From positions 1 through 42,958 of the forward strand of contig JAUTWX010000405.1 of NCBI GenBank assembly GCA_030838385.1: a DNA stretch of 42,958 nucleotides, in the 5' to 3' direction. Position numbers and translations under genes: made by a program. A model generated the notes under the pieces. That model was not told the DNA's origin. It saw only the letters and a program-made list of their open reading frames with translations, and searched no databases. This document shows, in pieces, positions 11,912 through 30,139 of the stretch; within the stretch, counting starts at the first letter, position 1, and each line of letters opens with the position of its first letter. The stretch is from Acidobacteriaceae bacterium. GTDB taxonomy: Bacteria; Acidobacteriota; Terriglobia; Terriglobales; Acidobacteriaceae.

Positions 11912-14170
11912 CTAGAGCCGGAATTGTGCCGCCAGGGACGCCTCCGATGAGCCGCCCGCCCACACGGTGAACTGGCCCGGCTCGACCACCCACTTCCCTT
12001 CTGTGTTCCAGACAGCGAGCTGGGTCTGTGGGATTCTAAAGGTAACCGTCTTTGTTTCCTGCGGCTGCAGGTGGATGCGCGAGAAGCCGGCCAGAGAGCG
12101 GCTGGGCGTCTCGACACTGGTGACGTTCTCACGGAAATAGAGCTGAGCCACCTCGTCTCCTTCGCGATCTCCTGTATTTGTCACATCCACGGATACCTTA
12201 ACGGCGGCGCTACTGCCGGCCACCGCTGGCTGCACGATGAGATGGTCATAGTGGAACGTCGTGTAACTGAGACCGAAGCCAAAGGGAAAGAGCGGCTTGC
12301 CGTCGTCGTCGACATATTTGTGAATGCGTGATGGGTCGCTATTGTAGAAATCCGGAAGCTGACCAACGCTGCGCGGGAAGGTGATGGTGAGGCGGCCGGC
12401 TGGATTGTTGTCTCCAAAGAGCGTTTCAGCGATGGCCTGGCCGCCAAACTCGCCCGGATACCATGCTTCGAGAATGGCGGGAACGTGCTGCTTGGCCCAG
12501 CCAATGGTGAGCGGCCTGCCGTTTTCAAGCACGAGGATTATGGGCTTGCCGGTGGCGGCGATGGCCTCCAGAAGCTGCTCCTGATTGCCGGGCAGATCGA
12601 GATTCGAGCGATCGAAGCCCTCGCCCGAAATGCCCTGCCATTCGCCTAGGCCGAGGATGACCATGTCTGCCTGCTTTGCGGCTGCGACAGCCGCGGGGAT
12701 CTCCTTGCCTGGATCAATGGTGACGGTTGCCTGGGGCACGATGGCGCGAATGCCATCGAGCAGGCTGATGCGTTTGCCATTCGATTCGCGCTCATAGTCG
12801 CCATAACGCGCCACATCTGCATTGGGTCCAATCACCGCGATGTGGCGAAGCGATTTCGAAAGAGGCAGAAGATGCCCATCGTTCTTGAGCAGCGTCATAG
12901 ACTGGCGCGCTGACTCGAGGGACAAGGCGAGATGCTGCTGCGAGCGGTGTGCGCGCGCGTTGAGCGTGGGATTGACGAAGGGATGGTCGAAGAGGCCGAG
13001 TGCAAATTTGACGCGAAGGACGGAACGTACGGCTCGGTCGAGATCCGATTGCGGCAGTGAGCCTTCGCGCACGCAATCGACGAGCGCCTTCTGAAAGACG
13101 TCGTGAGGAAAATCGTAGAACTGCATGTCAACGCCGGAGCGGATGGCGAGGCAGGAGGCGTCCTTCGGCGACGCGGCTACATGATGCACGGTATAAAGCC
13201 GCTCGATGGCGCCGAGGTCGGAGAGAACGAAACCCCGGAAGCCCCATTCCTGGCGGAGGATGGTCTTGAGCAGGAGCGGGTCCGCGGTGATGGGAATGCC
13301 ATCAATTTCGTGATACGCAGCCATGGTGGCCATGGCATGACCTTCGCGAAATGCCGGCTCGAAGGACTTCAGCATGACCGTGCGCAGCTCGCGCTCGCCG
13401 ATGTGCACGGGTGAGGTGTTGGTGCCGCCTTCGGGCGAGCCATGGCCGGCAAAGTGCTTGGGTTCGCTGACCACGGTGTGGTCGGTATCGAGACTGTCCC
13501 CTTGCGCGCCGCGCACGTATGCAAGGCCGAGCTGCCCAGTGAGATAGGGGTCTTCCCCGAAGTCCTCTTCGACGCGCCCCCAGCGCGGCTCGCGCGCTAC
13601 ATCGAGCACGGGCCCGAGGATCATGTCGACGCCGGTGGCGCGCGCCTCCGCAGCGATGGCGGCACCTGTCTGCTCGGCAATCTGCGGACTCCACGTCGCG
13701 GCGAGATTGATAGGCGCAGGAAAAACTGTTCCGGTATCAAACCCGTGCAGACCCTCCTCGATAAACAGCGCAGGAATGCCGAGCCGATTGTGTGCGATAA
13801 CCCAGCGCTGAATGGTGTTGACCTGCTCCGGTGTGGGGTTGAGATCGTGGATGCTGCCCACGCCGAGGTCGCCCCAAAGGCTCTGCGCCTTCTCCGGCAA
13901 GAAGACCGCTTCGATTGCCGCGTGTGTGTCGTCCATGTGCTTGTCGACGATATAGCGGGCGGCGGAGTACATATCCAACTGGCGCGCCTTTTCTTCCACA
14001 GTCATGCGCTGCAGCAGGTCCGTAATGCGGGCCTCTATAGGGGCATTCGCTTGCGTGTAGATCAGCGACTCTTGCGCTGACTGTGCGCCAGCACCAGCGG
14101 TATGCGTCGGCAGGAGGCACGCCAGACAGAAGAAGGCGCAGCGCGAGAGAGACGAGTATATCGGGCCCAT
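11912..14170 (-). CDS. Glycoside hydrolase family 3 beta-glucosidase
   Basis: MTVEEKARQLD; KHFAGHGSPEGGTN; GFVLSDLGAIERL; fibronectin-III-like C-terminus. Start chosen at 14170 after the 14181 stop of the upstream gene. Confidence 0.93.
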   Translation of the reverse strand: MGPIYSSLSRCAFFCLACLLPTHTAGAGAQSAQESLIYTQANAPIEARITDLLQRMTVEEKARQLDMYSAARYIVDKHMDDTHAAIEAVFLPEKAQSLWGDLGVGSIHDLNPTPEQVNTIQRWVIAHNRLGIPALFIEEGLHGFDTGTVFPAPINLAATWSPQIAEQTGAAIAAEARATGVDMILGPVLDVAREPRWGRVEEDFGEDPYLTGQLGLAYVRGAQGDSLDTDHTVVSEPKHFAGHGSPEGGTNTSPVHIGERELRTVMLKSFEPAFREGHAMATMAAYHEIDGIPITADPLLLKTILRQEWGFRGFVLSDLGAIERLYTVHHVAASPKDASCLAIRSGVDMQFYDFPHDVFQKALVDCVREGSLPQSDLDRAVRSVLRVKFALGLFDHPFVNPTLNARAHRSQQHLALSLESARQSMTLLKNDGHLLPLSKSLRHIAVIGPNADVARYGDYERESNGKRISLLDGIRAIVPQATVTIDPGKEIPAAVAAAKQADMVILGLGEWQGISGEGFDRSNLDLPGNQEQLLEAIAATGKPIILVLENGRPLTIGWAKQHVPAILEAWYPGEFGGQAIAETLFGDNNPAGRLTITFPRSVGQLPDFYNSDPSRIHKYVDDDGKPLFPFGFGLSYTTFHYDHLIVQPAVAGSSAAVKVSVDVTNTGDREGDEVAQLYFRENVTSVETPSRSLAGFSRIHLQPQETKTVTFRIPQTQLAVWNTEGKWVVEPGQFTVWAGGSSEASLAAQFRL

Positions 14171-22473: not shown

Positions 22474-22768
22474 CTAGCGAGAAGCGGCTGACCCCTTTTG
22501 ATCAAGCGCCTCCAACGCTACGTTGAGCTCGAGCACGTTGACCCGCGGCTCACCGAGAAGGCCAAGCTCTCGCTCGGTGGATGTGTTGCGACCAGCGCGC
22601 GCAATGCCGGGAACCGATCACTACACCGTTCTGCCGCACCAACTCCCCGGACGCCTGCGCGGGAAAGGCGAGATATGCAATGCCAGTGATCACGAGTGGA
22701 TAGACGATGCCAAGGAGTACTGCCGTGATTGCGGTGTAGAGGCATGCGGTGACGAGATGACGTTTCAT
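22474..22768 (-). pseudogene. kdpC: kdpC remnant: N-terminus joined to C-terminus by internal deletion
   Basis: MKRHLVTACLYTAITAVLLGIVYPLVITGIAYLAF...NGVVIGS, then in another frame TERELGLLGEPRVNVLELNVALEALDQKGSAASR*. Confidence 0.8.
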
Positions 22769-22781
22769 AGAGAGCGCTCCT

Positions 22782-23230
22782 CTAGGCAAGACCGACCGCA
22801 GTGATGACCATATCGATGAGCTTGATGACGATGAATGGAACGACAACCCCGCCGAGCCCATAGACCAGCAGATTGCGCTGCAGCATGGCCGCAGCAGACG
22901 ACGGGCGGTATTTCACCCCGCGCAGGGCGAGCGGGATCAGCAGAATGATGATGAGCGCATTGAAAATGATGGCTGAGAGCATGGCGGACTGCGGCGTGCG
23001 CAGCTGCATGATGTTCAACGCATTCAGCACAGGGAATGCGCCGGCAAACATCGCCGGGACGATCGCCAAATTTTTCGCGACATCATTGGCAATTGAAAAG
23101 GTGGTCAAGGCGCCGCGCGTCATCAGAAGCTGCTTGCCGATGGCCACGATCTCGATGAGCTTGGTCGGATTGGAATCGAGATCGACCATATTGCCGGCTT
23201 CTGTGGCGGCTTGTGTGCCGCTGTTCATGG
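22782..23230 (-). pseudogene. kdpB: kdpB remnant, C-terminal segment
   Basis: [105 protein letters not shown]... Confidence 0.85.
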
Positions 23231-23239
23231 GGTCGGGCG

Positions 23240-23562
23240 TGGTGGAAGAGGTGCCGAGTTCCATGCTTCGCGCGCAGGATCTGGTGCGTGTATCCGCCGG
23301 CCAAATGATTCCCGGCGACGGCGAGGTGGTCGAAGGCGTGGCGTCCGTCGACGAGTCAGGCATTCCCGGTGAATCGGCCCCGGTCATTCGGGAGGCGGGC
23401 GGCGATCGGTCCGCGGTGACCGGAGGCACGCGCGTATTGAGCGATGAGATCACCGTACACATCACGTCGAATCCGGGCGAGACCTTCCTCGATCGCATGA
23501 TTGCTCTGGTCGAGGGGGCAGAGCGTCGCAAGACGCCGAATGAGATTGCGCTGACATTCTGC
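23240..23562 (+). pseudogene. kdpB: kdpB remnant, internal segment in inverted orientation
   Basis: Plus strand reads [106 protein letters not shown], a KdpB actuator-domain segment. Confidence 0.85.
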
Positions 23563-23564
23563 TC

Positions 23565-23756
23565 GCCGGCGCCAAAGACCACTTCTCCCAACAGGATGTT
23601 CACCATCGGCACCATGCCGCCCAACGGCGTAAAGGAATCGTGCATGGAATTCACGGCGCCGCAGCTCGCGTCCGTGGTCACGGTGGCGAAGAGCGCCGGG
23701 TTCGCAATGCCGAAGCGAACCTCCTTGCCCTCCATGTTGCCTCCCGCCTGATTCAC
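23565..23756 (-). pseudogene. kdpA: kdpA remnant
   Basis: [61 protein letters not shown], a highly characteristic KdpA segment. Confidence 0.85.
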
Positions 23757-23874: not shown

Positions 23875-23904
23875 TTGACACTCATTTCATCCCAATGTCA
23901 TCAT
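23875..23904 (+). promoter_or_regulatory. Possible sigma70-type promoter
   Basis: TTGACA (23875-23880), 18-bp spacer, CATCAT (23899-23904); the operator-like word starts at 23904. Confidence 0.35.
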
Positions 23905-23920
23905 CGTGTACGTTACCGAT
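23904..23920 (+). promoter_or_regulatory. Operator-like word tcgtgtacgttaccgat, copy 1
   Basis: Exact 17-bp match to 30022..30038; upstream of the DUF5107-like/TPR gene. Confidence 0.65.
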
Positions 23921-23984
23921 GAGGCGAACTTCTCTCCACTTCCGGCTTCTGCCCGCGTCGGTTGCGGGATCGCAAGAGCGTTGA

Positions 23985-26900
23985 GTGACAGGCATGCCTG
24001 CAGAGTCTGCTCCCCTTCCATTTCGCTTGGAGCTTCCGTCAGCCCCTCCTGAAGAGACCGGCGCCGTCAAGGCATGGCGTCGACCGGTCATGATCCGGAG
24101 CTACCTGCCACATCTTCCGGATCGCAATCCGATGTTTCTTGAGACACGTGTGTACCAGGGCAGCAGCGGGCGCGTCTATCCCCTCCCATTCATAGACCGC
24201 ATTTCCGATACACCAGTCGAGCGTTCGTGGGATGCCGTGCACATTGAGAACGCTTGGCTCCGCCTTATGGTGTTGCCGCAGATCGGTGGCCGCATTCACG
24301 TTGGGCTCGACAAGACAAATGGCTATGACTTCTTTTACCGGCAGAATGTGATTAAGCCGGCGCTGGTCGGACTGGCCGGCCCGTGGATCTCCGGCGGCGT
24401 TGAGTTCAACTGGCCGCAGCACCATCGACCCGCAACCTTCATGTCGGTCGAGATCGAGATCGAGCGTCATCCCGATGGCTCCATCACGGTGTGGTGCAGC
24501 GATCACGATCCGATGCAGCGCATGAAAGGGATGCACGGCGTGTGCCTGCATCCGGATCGCGCCATCGTTGAGCTGAAGGTGCGCCTCTATAACCGCACCC
24601 CTTACCAGCAGACGTTTCTATGGTGGGCAAACGTCGCGGCGCGCGTTCATGAGAAGTATCAGTCCTTCTTTCCGCCCGATGTCCGCTATGTCGCGGACCA
24701 CGCGAAGCGGGCGATCACCGCATTCCCGCACAGCGATCGACCGTACTACGGTGTCGATTATCCAGCGCGCGCTCGCGACGGCGTTCCTGAAGAGGAGCAG
24801 CCGCGCCAGTTTCAGCCGGATGGTTCCTACTCGCCCGACGATCTGAGCTGGTATGCGAACATCCCCGTGCCAACCAGTTACATGATCACTTCCACCAAAG
24901 GGGATTTTTTTTGTGGCTACGATCATCGCGCGCAAGCCGGCGTGCTGCACATTGCGGACCATCACATCGCGCCGGGCAAGAAGCAGTGGACATGGGGAAA
25001 CCACGAGTTCGGTTACTCCTGGGACCGCAGCCTGACGGATAGCGACGGCCCGTATATCGAATTGATGGCCGGAGTCTACACGGACAATCAGCCGGACTTC
25101 TCCTTTCTCGCACCGGGAGAGACGAAGCACTTCTCGCAATTCTGGTATCCGCTGCAGCGCATCGGTCCGCCTCAGGCAGCCAGCCTGCTGTGCGCACTCA
25201 GTCTCACAACGCGGGAGCACCGGGTCACGATCGGCGTGCAGGCAACGGAGCACCTGAGCGACACGACAGTGACACTGCTGTGTCGTGGCGGCATAGCCGC
25301 TGACTGGACGCAGGACATCCACATCGGCAAGCCGATACTGCTTGAACACACATTTGAGAATGCGGTGCCGGAAAGCGATCTTGCTGTCACCGTCGAAGCC
25401 AACGGATTGCTGCTGCTCCGTTACGCGCCGGGCGAGATCGTCCCCGCGCCTGTGCCTACTGTTGCAATGGAGCCACCGGCGCCCTCTGCGATCGCGTCGA
25501 ACGAAGAGCTCTACCTCACCGGCCTCCATCTGGCGCAGTATCGTCACGCGACGCGGCGGCCAGAGTTCTATTGGCAGGAAGCGTTGCGCCGCGATCCCTA
25601 CGACGCGCGCGCAAACGCCGCGCTCGGCGAATGGCACATGCAGCGCGGCGAGTTCACCGTTGCCGAAGCGCTGCTGCGCAAGGGGATTCAGCGGCTCACA
25701 GCCCTCAATCCCAATCCAGCCGATGGGCGGCCTTACTATCTGCTTGGCCTGGTGCTGCGCTTCATGGATCGGCATTCGGAGAGCTACGATGCATTTTCGA
25801 AGGCGACGTGGAACGCAGCGTGGAAGGCTCCGGCACACTATGCACTGGCTCAGGCGGACGCAGCGGCCGGCCGCTGGGATGCGGCGCTCCAGCACGCGCG
25901 ACGGAGCTTGGCATGCGACGCCGATTACCTGAATGTCCGCAACCTGATCGTGCTCGCTCTCCGCGCGCTCGGCCGTAAGGACGAAGCCGCCGCCATGTTA
26001 GCTGAAACACGCGCCCTGGACCCGCTCGATCGCTGGAGCCGCCACCTCGCCCTCGGCGATGTGCCCAGGGATAATCGCGCGCTGCTCGATCTGGTCTGGG
26101 ATTACGTTGCCTGCGGACAGTACGATACTGCGATCCCGCTGCTTGATGCAGCGGATGCAAGTGCCACGGATGGCAGCACACCGCTTGTGCACTACACGTT
26201 CGGCTATCTCAAGCATCGTCTGGGTCGCATCAGCGAAGCCGACGAGGCATGGCAGCGCGCCGCCGCGGCACCGCCGGACTACTGCTTCCCGCATCGCCTG
26301 GAAGAGATGCTGGTGTTGCAGGCCGTGGTGGAAGCGGTGCGGAGCGACGCGCGTGCACCCTACTATCTCGGCAATCTGCTCTACGATCGCCGGCGCTACG
26401 ATGAGGCGATCGAACTTTGGCAGCGCGCTGCGAGCTTTGATGCCGCGTTCCCCACAGTCCACCGCAACCTCGGTATCGCACTCTTCAATGTGCGTGGCGA
26501 CGCCGATGCTGCCGTTGCCGCATTCGATCGCGCCCAGGCTGCTGACCCGAGCGATGGCCGCATTCTCTATGAGCGCGACCAGCTATGTAAGCGCGCAGGT
26601 GTCGCGCCTCAGCAGCGTCTCGCCGAGCTGCTGCATCATCGCGATCTCGTCGCCATGCGCGATGATCTCTCCGTGGAAGTGGCGACGCTCTACAACCAGA
26701 CCGGCAAGCCAGAGCAGGCGCTGTCCGGTTTACTCTCGCGCAACTTTCAACCGTGGGAGGGCGGCGAAGGACTGGTGCTGGGGCAGTTCGTACGCGCTTC
26801 TCTATTGTTAGCTCGGCACGCGATCGCCGCTGGCAAGCCCGCGGACGCGATCGCACACCTGGAGGCAGCGCTCCATCCGCCGCAGTCGCTGGGAGAGGCT

Positions 26901-27437
26901 CGACACCTCCTCGCGAACAAGAGCGATATCGAGTACGCGCTGGGCATTGCGCATGCGGCTGCCGGCAATCGACAGGAAGCAGAGCGCTGGTGGCAGCGCG
27001 CATCCCAGCAGACAGGCGACTTCCAGCAGATGAACGTGCTTACCATCTCCGACATGACGTATTGGAGAGGCGCCGCGCTCGAAAAGCTGCAGCAGCGCAC
27101 CCAGGCGGAGCAGGTCTTCCGCAGTATCGCTGTATACGCGGATGAGCTCGACGTGCAGGAGCCGAAAATCGACTACTTCGCCACTTCGCTGCCCGCCATG
27201 CTGCTCTTCCATGAGGATTTGCATCTTCGCAATCGCGTGCTCGCAGCCTTCCTCCGTGCGCAGGCTACTTATGGTCTCGACGGAGCGGAAGCCGCCATTC
27301 CAATGCTGCGTGCAGTGCTCACGCTCGACGGCAATCACGCCGGAGCATCCGACCTGCTGCAAAAAGCTGAGCTCACCGTACGCGCAACGAATACGCAGGG
27401 CGGATCCGAATCGCATATCTCAGCCAGGACCACATAA
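23985..27437 (+). CDS. DUF5107-like (mutarotase-like) N-terminal domain plus TPR repeats
   Basis: 1150 aa: ENAWLRLMVLPQIGGRIHVGLDKTNGYDFFYRQNVIKPALVGLAGPWISGGVEFNWPQHHRP..., then many TPR units. GTG start at 23985 or ATG at 23994. Confidence 0.85.
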   Translation: MTGMPAESAPLPFRLELPSAPPEETGAVKAWRRPVMIRSYLPHLPDRNPMFLETRVYQGSSGRVYPLPFIDRISDTPVERSWDAVHIENAWLRLMVLPQIGGRIHVGLDKTNGYDFFYRQNVIKPALVGLAGPWISGGVEFNWPQHHRPATFMSVEIEIERHPDGSITVWCSDHDPMQRMKGMHGVCLHPDRAIVELKVRLYNRTPYQQTFLWWANVAARVHEKYQSFFPPDVRYVADHAKRAITAFPHSDRPYYGVDYPARARDGVPEEEQPRQFQPDGSYSPDDLSWYANIPVPTSYMITSTKGDFFCGYDHRAQAGVLHIADHHIAPGKKQWTWGNHEFGYSWDRSLTDSDGPYIELMAGVYTDNQPDFSFLAPGETKHFSQFWYPLQRIGPPQAASLLCALSLTTREHRVTIGVQATEHLSDTTVTLLCRGGIAADWTQDIHIGKPILLEHTFENAVPESDLAVTVEANGLLLLRYAPGEIVPAPVPTVAMEPPAPSAIASNEELYLTGLHLAQYRHATRRPEFYWQEALRRDPYDARANAALGEWHMQRGEFTVAEALLRKGIQRLTALNPNPADGRPYYLLGLVLRFMDRHSESYDAFSKATWNAAWKAPAHYALAQADAAAGRWDAALQHARRSLACDADYLNVRNLIVLALRALGRKDEAAAMLAETRALDPLDRWSRHLALGDVPRDNRALLDLVWDYVACGQYDTAIPLLDAADASATDGSTPLVHYTFGYLKHRLGRISEADEAWQRAAAAPPDYCFPHRLEEMLVLQAVVEAVRSDARAPYYLGNLLYDRRRYDEAIELWQRAASFDAAFPTVHRNLGIALFNVRGDADAAVAAFDRAQAADPSDGRILYERDQLCKRAGVAPQQRLAELLHHRDLVAMRDDLSVEVATLYNQTGKPEQALSGLLSRNFQPWEGGEGLVLGQFVRASLLLARHAIAAGKPADAIAHLEAALHPPQSLGEARHLLANKSDIEYALGIAHAAAGNRQEAERWWQRASQQTGDFQQMNVLTISDMTYWRGAALEKLQQRTQAEQVFRSIAVYADELDVQEPKIDYFATSLPAMLLFHEDLHLRNRVLAAFLRAQATYGLDGAEAAIPMLRAVLTLDGNHAGASDLLQKAELTVRATNTQGGSESHISARTT

Positions 27438-27439
27438 GC

Positions 27440-28873
27440 GTGCACTCCGCGCCATCTGCTGCATCGCCGATCGAGCCGCACGCAGAGAAACTTCGTCTCG
27501 GATATCTGCTCTGGATCGCCGCCGTCGCCGCGCTCGGCGGCTTCCTCTTCGGCTATGACTGGGTGGTCATCGGTGGCGCAAAACCTTTCTATGAAGCGTA
27601 CTTTCACCTGACCACAGATACGCTCATCGGCTGGGCCAACAGTTGTGCACTGGTGGGCTGCCTCGCTGGATCGCTCCTCTCCGGCGTCCTCGGCGACAGA
27701 CTGGGCCGTAAGCGTTCTCTGCTGCTGGCCGGCGCTCTTTTCGCTATCTCCTCCGTGCTCACCGGCTGGGCCTTCTCCTTCGCCGCATTCATCGCATGGC
27801 GCATGGTGGGCGGCCTCGCTATCGGACTCGCCTCCAACATCTCTCCCTTGTACATCGCGGAGATCAGTCCCGCGCAGTGGCGCGGGCGCCTGGTGAGTCT
27901 CAACCAACTGGCCATCGTCTGCGGCATCCTCGGCGCGCAAATCTTTGACTGGCAGATCGGCACGCGCGGCGCACACCTCTTCCGTGGCTCGCTTTCCGCG
28001 GTCGCCTGGAATGCTCAGTATGGATGGCGCTGGATGTTCACCGCGGTCGCCGTCCCGGCGGTGCTGCTGTTTCTTCTGGCGGGCATCATTCCGGAGAGCC
28101 CCCGCTGGCTCATGTCTCGTCACCGCACGGCGGATGCGGAAACAGTCCTTACCCGCATGGGCGGCCACAACTATGCCAGCAGCATGATTGATACCATCGC
28201 ACAGCATCTGCAGCACGATCGCGCTCAGGCAACGGGCTGGCGTGAGCTTGCGTCACCGGGCATGCGGCGGCTGGTGTTCATCGGCATCGGCCTTGCCGTC
28301 TTGCAGCAGTGGAGCGGCATCAACATCCTCTTCAACTATGCAGAAGAGGTCTATCGCAGCGCCGGCTATGCCGTGAACGACATCCTGTTCAACATCGTGA
28401 TCACCGGCGCGATCAACCTGGTCTTCACGCTGCTGGCCATGCTCTTCGTCGACCGTATCGGGCGCCGCTTTCTCATGCTGCTCGGCTGCGCCAGCGTCGG
28501 CGTGGTCCATGTCGCGTTAGCGATTGTCTATCACCTTCACCTGCGCGGCCTGCCCATTCTGCTGCTCACGCTCTGCGCCATCGGCTGTTACGCCATGACG
28601 CTCGCGCCAGTCACCTGGGTGCTGATCACGGAGATCTTTCCCAACCGAATCCGCGCGCGAGGCGTCTCGCTCGCCGTCTCTGCGTTGTGGGCTTCCTCCT
28701 TCCTGCTCACCTTTTCCTTCCCTGCGCTCACCGCCGCCTTTGGCCAGTCGGGAGCCTTCGTGGTCTACGGCGTGACCTGTCTTGCGGGCTGGATTTGCGT
28801 AAGGGCTTTCGTGCGGGAAACCAAGGGGCGCAGTCTCGAACAAATTGAAGATGCCACTGCACACGGACGCTGA
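27440..28873 (+). CDS. Sugar-porter-type MFS transporter
   Basis: GGFLFGYDWVVIGGAKPF; DRLGRKRSLLLAG; PESPRWLMSRHR; VDRIGRRFLMLLGC; ITEIFPNRIRARG; ETKGRSLEQIE. Confidence 0.92.
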   Translation: MHSAPSAASPIEPHAEKLRLGYLLWIAAVAALGGFLFGYDWVVIGGAKPFYEAYFHLTTDTLIGWANSCALVGCLAGSLLSGVLGDRLGRKRSLLLAGALFAISSVLTGWAFSFAAFIAWRMVGGLAIGLASNISPLYIAEISPAQWRGRLVSLNQLAIVCGILGAQIFDWQIGTRGAHLFRGSLSAVAWNAQYGWRWMFTAVAVPAVLLFLLAGIIPESPRWLMSRHRTADAETVLTRMGGHNYASSMIDTIAQHLQHDRAQATGWRELASPGMRRLVFIGIGLAVLQQWSGINILFNYAEEVYRSAGYAVNDILFNIVITGAINLVFTLLAMLFVDRIGRRFLMLLGCASVGVVHVALAIVYHLHLRGLPILLLTLCAIGCYAMTLAPVTWVLITEIFPNRIRARGVSLAVSALWASSFLLTFSFPALTAAFGQSGAFVVYGVTCLAGWICVRAFVRETKGRSLEQIEDATAHGR

Positions 28874-28876
28874 CCG

Positions 28877-29968
28877 TCAGACGCCTCGTGCTTCCGCCGC
28901 CGCACGCGCTTTACTGCGAACGCGGTCGGCAAAGAGCGGCAGATTGCTGCGGAAGACGGTGTGTGGCGCGAGCCGCGTTGCGTGCTCCGGGCGCACCCGC
29001 TCTACCAAGTAGCGCAACAGAATCTCGAAGGCGGTCTTCCCCTGCGCGAATGGCCGCTGGTAAAGCGTTGCCAGGATGCGGCCGCCTTCGAGCAGAGGAA
29101 TCAGCTCAGCGAAGAGATCCGTACACAGCACCTGCACCTTGCCGAGGAGCTGCTGCTCTTCCAGAACGCGCAGCACCGGCAGGCTGTTCGCCGTGCTCAC
29201 GTAGATGCCGGCAACCTCTGGGTTGCGCTTGAGCAGGTTGCGCGTCTGTCGCAAAGCCTCCTGCGCGCTCTCGTGTGATTCCACCACCGGCAGCAGAGAA
29301 AGGTGTGGCGCAAGCAGTGCAAGATTGGCGGCAAAGCCACGCAGCTTCTCCGCATGGTCCAGGACGTGGAGCTCACCCGTAATCATGGCGACGGTGCCAT
29401 TGCGTTGAATGGTGCGTCCCAGCAGCTCCGCAGCCAATGCACCGCTTACGTATGCGTCGACGGAGACGGCGGCGATGCGCTCGCTGTGAGGCGCATCACT
29501 GGCAACGCATACCATCGCGGTGCCCGAGCGGCTTAACCGATTGATTGCCGGCTCGGATTTCGCGGGATCGCCGGGCGTGAAGATGACACCATCGAACCGG
29601 CCATCGGGAATCGACTCCAGTAACGCCAGATCGCCCTCCCCGATCCGCGGATAAGTGCGGTATTCGACATCGATCTCGACGCCGAAGACGCCGCCTGCGG
29701 CAGAGCGCACGCCTTCGAGCAGCGGCGCAAAGAACGAGTGGATCTGCTCCGGTAGATACACGGCGATGCTCAAACGGCGATTCAGTTTCAGGCTGCGCGC
29801 TGCGAGGTTCGGCCGGTAGTTCAGCTTCTGCGCCATCGCCAGCACGCGTGCACGCGTCTTCGGGTTCACTCCCGGTCGATCGTGAAAGGCACGATCGACC
29901 GTGGCGATGGAAATCCCGAGGGCGCGAGCCACATCTTTGATACCTGCGGGCTTCTTTCCTTTTTCCAT
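28877..29968 (-). CDS. LacI-family transcriptional regulator
   Basis: GIKDVARALGISIATVDRAFHDRPGVNPKTRARVLAMAQKLNYRPNLAARSL plus periplasmic-binding-like domain. Confidence 0.93.
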   Translation of the reverse strand: MEKGKKPAGIKDVARALGISIATVDRAFHDRPGVNPKTRARVLAMAQKLNYRPNLAARSLKLNRRLSIAVYLPEQIHSFFAPLLEGVRSAAGGVFGVEIDVEYRTYPRIGEGDLALLESIPDGRFDGVIFTPGDPAKSEPAINRLSRSGTAMVCVASDAPHSERIAAVSVDAYVSGALAAELLGRTIQRNGTVAMITGELHVLDHAEKLRGFAANLALLAPHLSLLPVVESHESAQEALRQTRNLLKRNPEVAGIYVSTANSLPVLRVLEEQQLLGKVQVLCTDLFAELIPLLEGGRILATLYQRPFAQGKTAFEILLRYLVERVRPEHATRLAPHTVFRSNLPLFADRVRSKARAAAEARGV

Positions 29969-30021
29969 GCAACTGCATCCTAGCGCAGCTCTGCGACTTT
30001 GCCGATATGCTTCACTCATGC

Positions 30022-30041
30022 TCGTGTACGTTACCGATAAC
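30022..30041 (+). promoter_or_regulatory. Operator-like word tcgtgtacgttaccgataac, copy 2
   Basis: 54 bp upstream of the LacI-family start; contains imperfect palindrome GTTACCGATAAC; 17 bp identical to 23904..23920. Confidence 0.65.
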
Positions 30042-30139
30042 GGCTTTGAAATTGACCGCGAACGCCCTGCCGTCCCGCGCCGATGCTTTCAACCCACGGA
30101 ACGGGCAGCCAATCCACCGCGCTGGGAATCACAGCGTGC

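Follow-up and report, generated by a model that had tools for sequence, protein, structure and literature searches.

A repeated 14-bp sequence at both ends of a DUF5107-MFS/lacI locus in an Acidobacteriaceae bacterium is probably the operator of the adjacent LacI-family regulator

The window, by which we mean the whole 42,958-nucleotide stretch of Acidobacteriaceae DNA that was analysed, contains a locus of three genes. Two of them, for a DUF5107 protein and a major facilitator (MFS) transporter, form an operon on the plus strand, and the third encodes a LacI-family regulator on the minus strand. The features of the locus are:

23875..23904, plus strand: predicted sigma-70-type promoter of the DUF5107-MFS operon (TTGACA 23875-23880, 18 nt, CATCAT 23899-23904; 10/12 in a consensus scan)
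23905..23918, plus strand: putative operator 1, CGTGTACGTTACCG, an exact repeat directly after the -10 and over the expected transcription start
23985..27437, plus strand: DUF5107 and TPR protein, 1150 aa (GTG 23985 or ATG 23994; Pfam DUF5107, E 1.6e-49)
27440..28873, plus strand: MFS sugar transporter, 477 aa (Pfam Sugar_tr, E 2.6e-105)
28877..29968, minus strand: LacI-family regulator, 363 aa (ATG 29968; PF00356 LacI, E 3.5e-12; PF13407 Peripla_BP_4, E 2.1e-38)
30023..30036, plus strand: putative operator 2, CGTGTACGTTACCG, an exact repeat that precedes the lacI start by about 55 bp
30067..30102, plus strand: 36-bp stretch that may be left from the 3' end of a TonB-dependent-receptor gene, now lost (a weak match, 78% to L021 at about 13024-13059 within the KBS 83 receptor gene, E 0.002)

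The DUF5107 domain occupies residues 63-389 of the 1150-aa protein (Pfam) and is followed by TPR repeats. Among solved chains, the transporter is nearest to XylE, a D-xylose/H+ symporter (E about 2e-78), and to GlcP. The regulator has the architecture of the LacI family, with an N-terminal helix-turn-helix and a C-terminal periplasmic-binding-protein-like domain. It reached the cut-off of none of the named LacI-type models in NCBIfam; the best, UriR, scored 74.8 bits where 550 are required, and GalR scored 35.6 bits where 557 are required. A 380-aa reading of the regulator, starting at 30019, is probably too long, because in the sister species Acidobacteriaceae bacterium KBS 83 a stop interrupts it between the upstream ATG and ATGGATAGGGG. 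We prefer the 363-aa form. Beyond operator 2 lie a gene for Ku (Pfam) and then a LigD-like gene (named from sequence). On the other side of the locus, at 22553-23756, is a scrambled kdp operon in which a minus-strand KdpA piece (model positions 319-379) comes first and is followed by an inverted KdpB piece (112-221, plus-strand reading), the KdpB end (533-675) and the KdpC start. Either the operon has decayed or the assembly is at fault here.

We found that the 17-bp word TCGTGTACGTTACCGAT occurs at 23904-23920 and again at 30022-30038. Both copies are exact, as the sequence-only reading had reported, and its remark that the first copy directly follows a possible -10 is borne out by the TTGACA/CATCAT pair listed above. 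With up to three mismatches allowed, these were still the only two matches in the window (0.08 expected), and two matches were found in 0 of 100 shuffles. The genome scan that the same reading proposed was run on the assembly behind the window (G000; 4.45 Mb, 551 contigs, 85% complete), where TGTACGTTACCGAT was present only at the two window sites. The 14-bp core CGTGTACGTTACCG had two exact matches in the assembly, both at the DUF5107-MFS/lacI locus, none with one mismatch, and 21 with two mismatches. Reversed-pattern controls for the core gave 17 and 23 matches, indicating that the two-mismatch matches are background. A wider regulon within the assembly was also considered; it is ruled out by the lack of one-mismatch sites and the background level of two-mismatch sites.

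We found that the site is kept at orthologous promoters. The neighbourhood set comprised 47 loci (904 kb), and a sequence was counted as a version of the site if it matched the best half-sites at 12 positions or more out of 14. Among the orthologous loci, 36 extended far enough to include the DUF5107 start, and such a version lay upstream of the DUF5107 gene in 34 of them. In the two exceptions (L026 and L178), the site was before the upstream neighbour or beside lacI. Most of the orthologous sites follow a TTGACA, spaced so that the site falls on the -10 or the start point; in KBS 83, TTGACA is also 24 nt before the operator, as it is in the window. At operator 1 and at most of its orthologues, then, the site overlies a predicted promoter, which is the position of a repressor. 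This repeated arrangement is the strongest sign that the regulator is a repressor.

A degenerate form of the motif occurred 68 times in the 904 kb. None of these occurrences was inside a modelled regulon gene and 66 were close to where such a gene starts, a figure that is descriptive since the regulon genes were modelled from those same neighbourhoods. The genes preceded by sites in relatives (Pfam-supported names) are those for DUF5107 proteins, TonB-dependent receptors, LacI, galactokinase, GH36, GH95, GH2 and GH59, and the site on the lacI side is often shared with a divergent GH36, GH59, GH95 or receptor gene. The DUF5107-TPR, MFS and LacI genes travel together through the Acidobacteriaceae (L023, L026, L142-L181), with GH36, GH95, GH59 and GalK.

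The distribution of the site across the family tracks that of the regulator. In a sample of 300 genomes of Acidobacteriaceae, the pattern CGTGYACGTTACCG gave 48 sites in 40 genomes, and a LacI orthologue (E at most 1e-85) was present in 64 genomes. We estimate that about 0.1 sites would be expected within 21 kb of an orthologue; 38 of the 48 were. An orthologue was present in 33 of the 40 site-bearing genomes compared with 31 of the 260 site-free genomes (Fisher p = 1.4e-19, which overstates independence, as the 300 genomes share kinship). The reversed pattern had about 31 matches in the same genomes, compared with the 48 core sites. Because this control is nearly as frequent, the evidence is the location of the sites and not their number; the count of sites per genome was dropped and proximity was used. 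Confinement beside the regulator, characteristic of a local LacI sugar regulon, was found for 2/2 sites in the assembly and 38/48 in the family. About half of the genomes with an orthologue have variant sites only. Ten of the 48 sites were not near an orthologue. The sites of L134 and L130 adjoin receptor genes, and no regulon gene was found within the short flanking stretches of remote sites (L123, L133, L136, L139, L141 and others). Distant LacI paralogues (36-42% identity; L028, L032, L033, L034, L036) have CGTGTACGTTAACG or CGTGTACGTTCACG sites nearby.

We found that the two halves of the site are unequal. The extension of copy 2, GTTACCGATAAC, had been described as an imperfect LacI-type palindrome, but that reading is in the wrong register: the conserved dyad is CGTGTAC joined to GTTACCG, and the extension is not conserved beyond copy 2, KBS 83 having GTTACCGCTAAA at that position. 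In 68 aligned sites, information was confined to the 14-bp core plus a weak A three bases beyond. The outer CG, the inner AC/GT and the centre are symmetric, and the central CG is present in all sites, though the search pattern required it. Half-site positions 3-5 are not symmetric; one half is CGTGTAC, its partner CGGTAAC or CGTTAAC. The site is in this respect not the palindrome of conserved inverted repeats by which LacI-family operators are recognized.

Mixed sites, with one pyrimidine half and one A half, accounted for 62 of the 68 (p = 4e-13 versus independent halves), a count that overstates independence since many of the sites are orthologous. Among equally degenerate sites elsewhere in 24 genomes, 23 of the 46 matches listed were mixed (p = 1.4e-6 versus 62/68), and the exact CGTGTAC/CGGTAAC pair was absent from those 46. 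The mixing bias is therefore specific to sites of the regulon near the gene. The asymmetry is not imposed by the promoter, since one and the same gene can be preceded by the site in either orientation. On the protein side, the recognition helix SI(A/G)TVDRA is near-invariant in 47 orthologues, and the hinge-helix Leu60 is present in 47/47. One tentative explanation, which we hold to be possible if somewhat doubtful, is that this TVDR LacI-type regulator evolved a genuinely asymmetric operator. Its subunits would read CGTGTAC and CGGTAAC or CGTTAAC, respectively, through an asymmetric homodimer or a heterodimer of paralogues, and palindromes would be selected against, perhaps excluding LacI paralogues. 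Given the sites beside the distant paralogues, the TVDR group more widely may share the trait of unequal half-sites. If the natural mixed site were stronger than CGTGTACGTACACG and CGGTAACGTTACCG, recognition of the asymmetry would be real; a stronger palindrome would indicate a tuned weak site.

The comparison with KBS 83 (L020/L021), the sole match in a contig search for relatives, bears on the history of operator 2. The KBS 83 regulator is 93% identical to that of the window, and its three-gene locus has CGTGTACGTTACCG and CGTGCACGTTACCG at the two corresponding places, CGTGCACGTTACCG (L021 9470-9483, 56 bp from lacI) being the counterpart of operator 2. Between this site and Ku, KBS 83 has receptor and GH59 genes (5.7 kb; L021 9487-15235). 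The window has 62 bp there (30040-30103); homology between the two ends just past operator 2 and then resumes. Because relatives in the family commonly retain receptor and GH59 genes at the locus, their loss in the window lineage is the simpler reading, an assembly fault being also possible. No GH59 match was found elsewhere in the 85% complete assembly, in a search run without a positive control. The regulon in the window appears to have shrunk to DUF5107-MFS plus lacI.

Our results are best explained, and very likely so, if the word serves as operator for the LacI-family protein encoded next to it, which would repress DUF5107-MFS until an inducer is present. A LacI dimer would bind CGTGTACGTTACCG with the CG at its centre. 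Bound at 23905-23918, the dimer would cover the expected start point and block transcription of DUF5107-MFS; the DNA would be freed of repressor by an inducer, for which galactose or a galactoside is the likeliest candidate; and a dimer at 30023-30036 would probably set the level of the regulator itself. We infer binding, repression, autoregulation and the inducer from sequence. The self-contained LacI regulon of the sequence-only reading is supported as far as control of the DUF5107 and MFS genes is concerned, by the two sites in the assembly, by the same core at orthologous promoters and by a distribution that tracks the LacI orthologue. Its other part, autoregulation, is the weakest step of the model and is plausible, given a site about 55 bp upstream of lacI that is kept in KBS 83.

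Other readings of the repeat account for less of the evidence. Duplication could in principle make a 17-bp word recur within 43 kb, but the shuffles and the preservation of the core across many genera, at orthologous promoters, reduce a functionless chance repeat to a negligible probability. It is also improbable that the word binds another regulator, either a LacI paralogue or a global one, with the adjacent LacI gene a bystander. There are several LacI-family genes per genome, with more distant ones in relatives, sites like CGTGTACGTTAACG lie close to the distant paralogues, and ten family sites lie away from an orthologue. However, a global regulator would show scattered sites, and the exact core is limited to the locus in the assembly and tracks the LacI orthologue (p = 1e-19). 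A more serious alternative, though still an unlikely one, concerns operator 2, which might be left over from a lost divergent receptor-GH59 operon and have no control of lacI. This would fit the receptor and GH59 genes between lacI and Ku in KBS 83, the end of interspecies homology just after the site, the possible 36-bp receptor relic that follows it, and the many relatives that share the lacI-side site with a divergent gene. Yet in KBS 83 a separate site (L021 9639) lies closer to the receptor, the lacI-side site is 56 bp from lacI, and the window retains an intact site despite the loss of the receptor. The lacI-side site may have served the divergent neighbour first.

Most likely, the role of the regulator is to control the use of galactosides. 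This assignment comes from relatives, in which the sites precede GH36, GH2, GH59, GH95, galactokinase and receptor genes, since neither a galactosidase nor a galactokinase was found at the window locus. The regulation could be as described with an inducer that is not derived from galactose, the window operon serving some other sugar. We regard this as rather unlikely, but it deserves some weight: XylE is the solved chain nearest to the transporter, there is no galactose gene at the window locus, DUF5107 is a domain of no known function, and the GH95 and GH2 families act on non-galactosides too. Against it, sites in relatives directly precede the genes for galactokinase, the GH36 melibiase, GH2, GH59 and GH95, and several independent galactoside-type functions are thereby placed under a common operator.

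Based on these results, we suggest that this is an ordinary kind of switch, newly mapped. The word is almost certainly the binding site of the adjacent repressor, and its two copies would form an operator pair controlling a small regulon that probably responds to galactosides. For the Acidobacteriaceae, which are soil bacteria, the locus offers a specific operator, a regulator and a set of targets for the use of galactosides, and the common switch would tie DUF5107-TPR proteins to a galactoside pathway. In the literature searched, we found no mapped LacI regulon for the Acidobacteriaceae, and DUF5107 had a passing mention in one paper.

Local sugar regulators of the LacI family have a CG-centred site 30-140 bp upstream, with autoregulation in 72%, and their motifs are described as palindromes (PMC4052901). 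The locus resembles the regulons of that RegPrecise-type survey (GalR, BgaR, GanR, LacI) in having the regulator beside its targets, a CG-centred site near the promoter, sugar enzyme and transport targets, and probable autoregulation. It differs from them in a site that is non-palindromic at positions 3-5 and in its TVDR helix, and it comes from a group, the Acidobacteriaceae, that the survey does not mention. The published LacI recognition code analysed the TVSR group (PMC2978694). The central CG and the conserved hinge-helix leucine are shared with that set, whereas the protein here has SI(A/G)TVDRA and its sites as a rule mix two half-sites. These conserved, unequal half-sites depart from the usual symmetric picture of LacI-family operators in a way that can be tested. 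The halves of a natural operator are unequal in Escherichia coli lac O1 too. There, however, an additional base pair sits at the centre, whereas the site described here is evenly spaced around a central CG and is unequal within its halves, a feature that persists from one promoter and genus to another.
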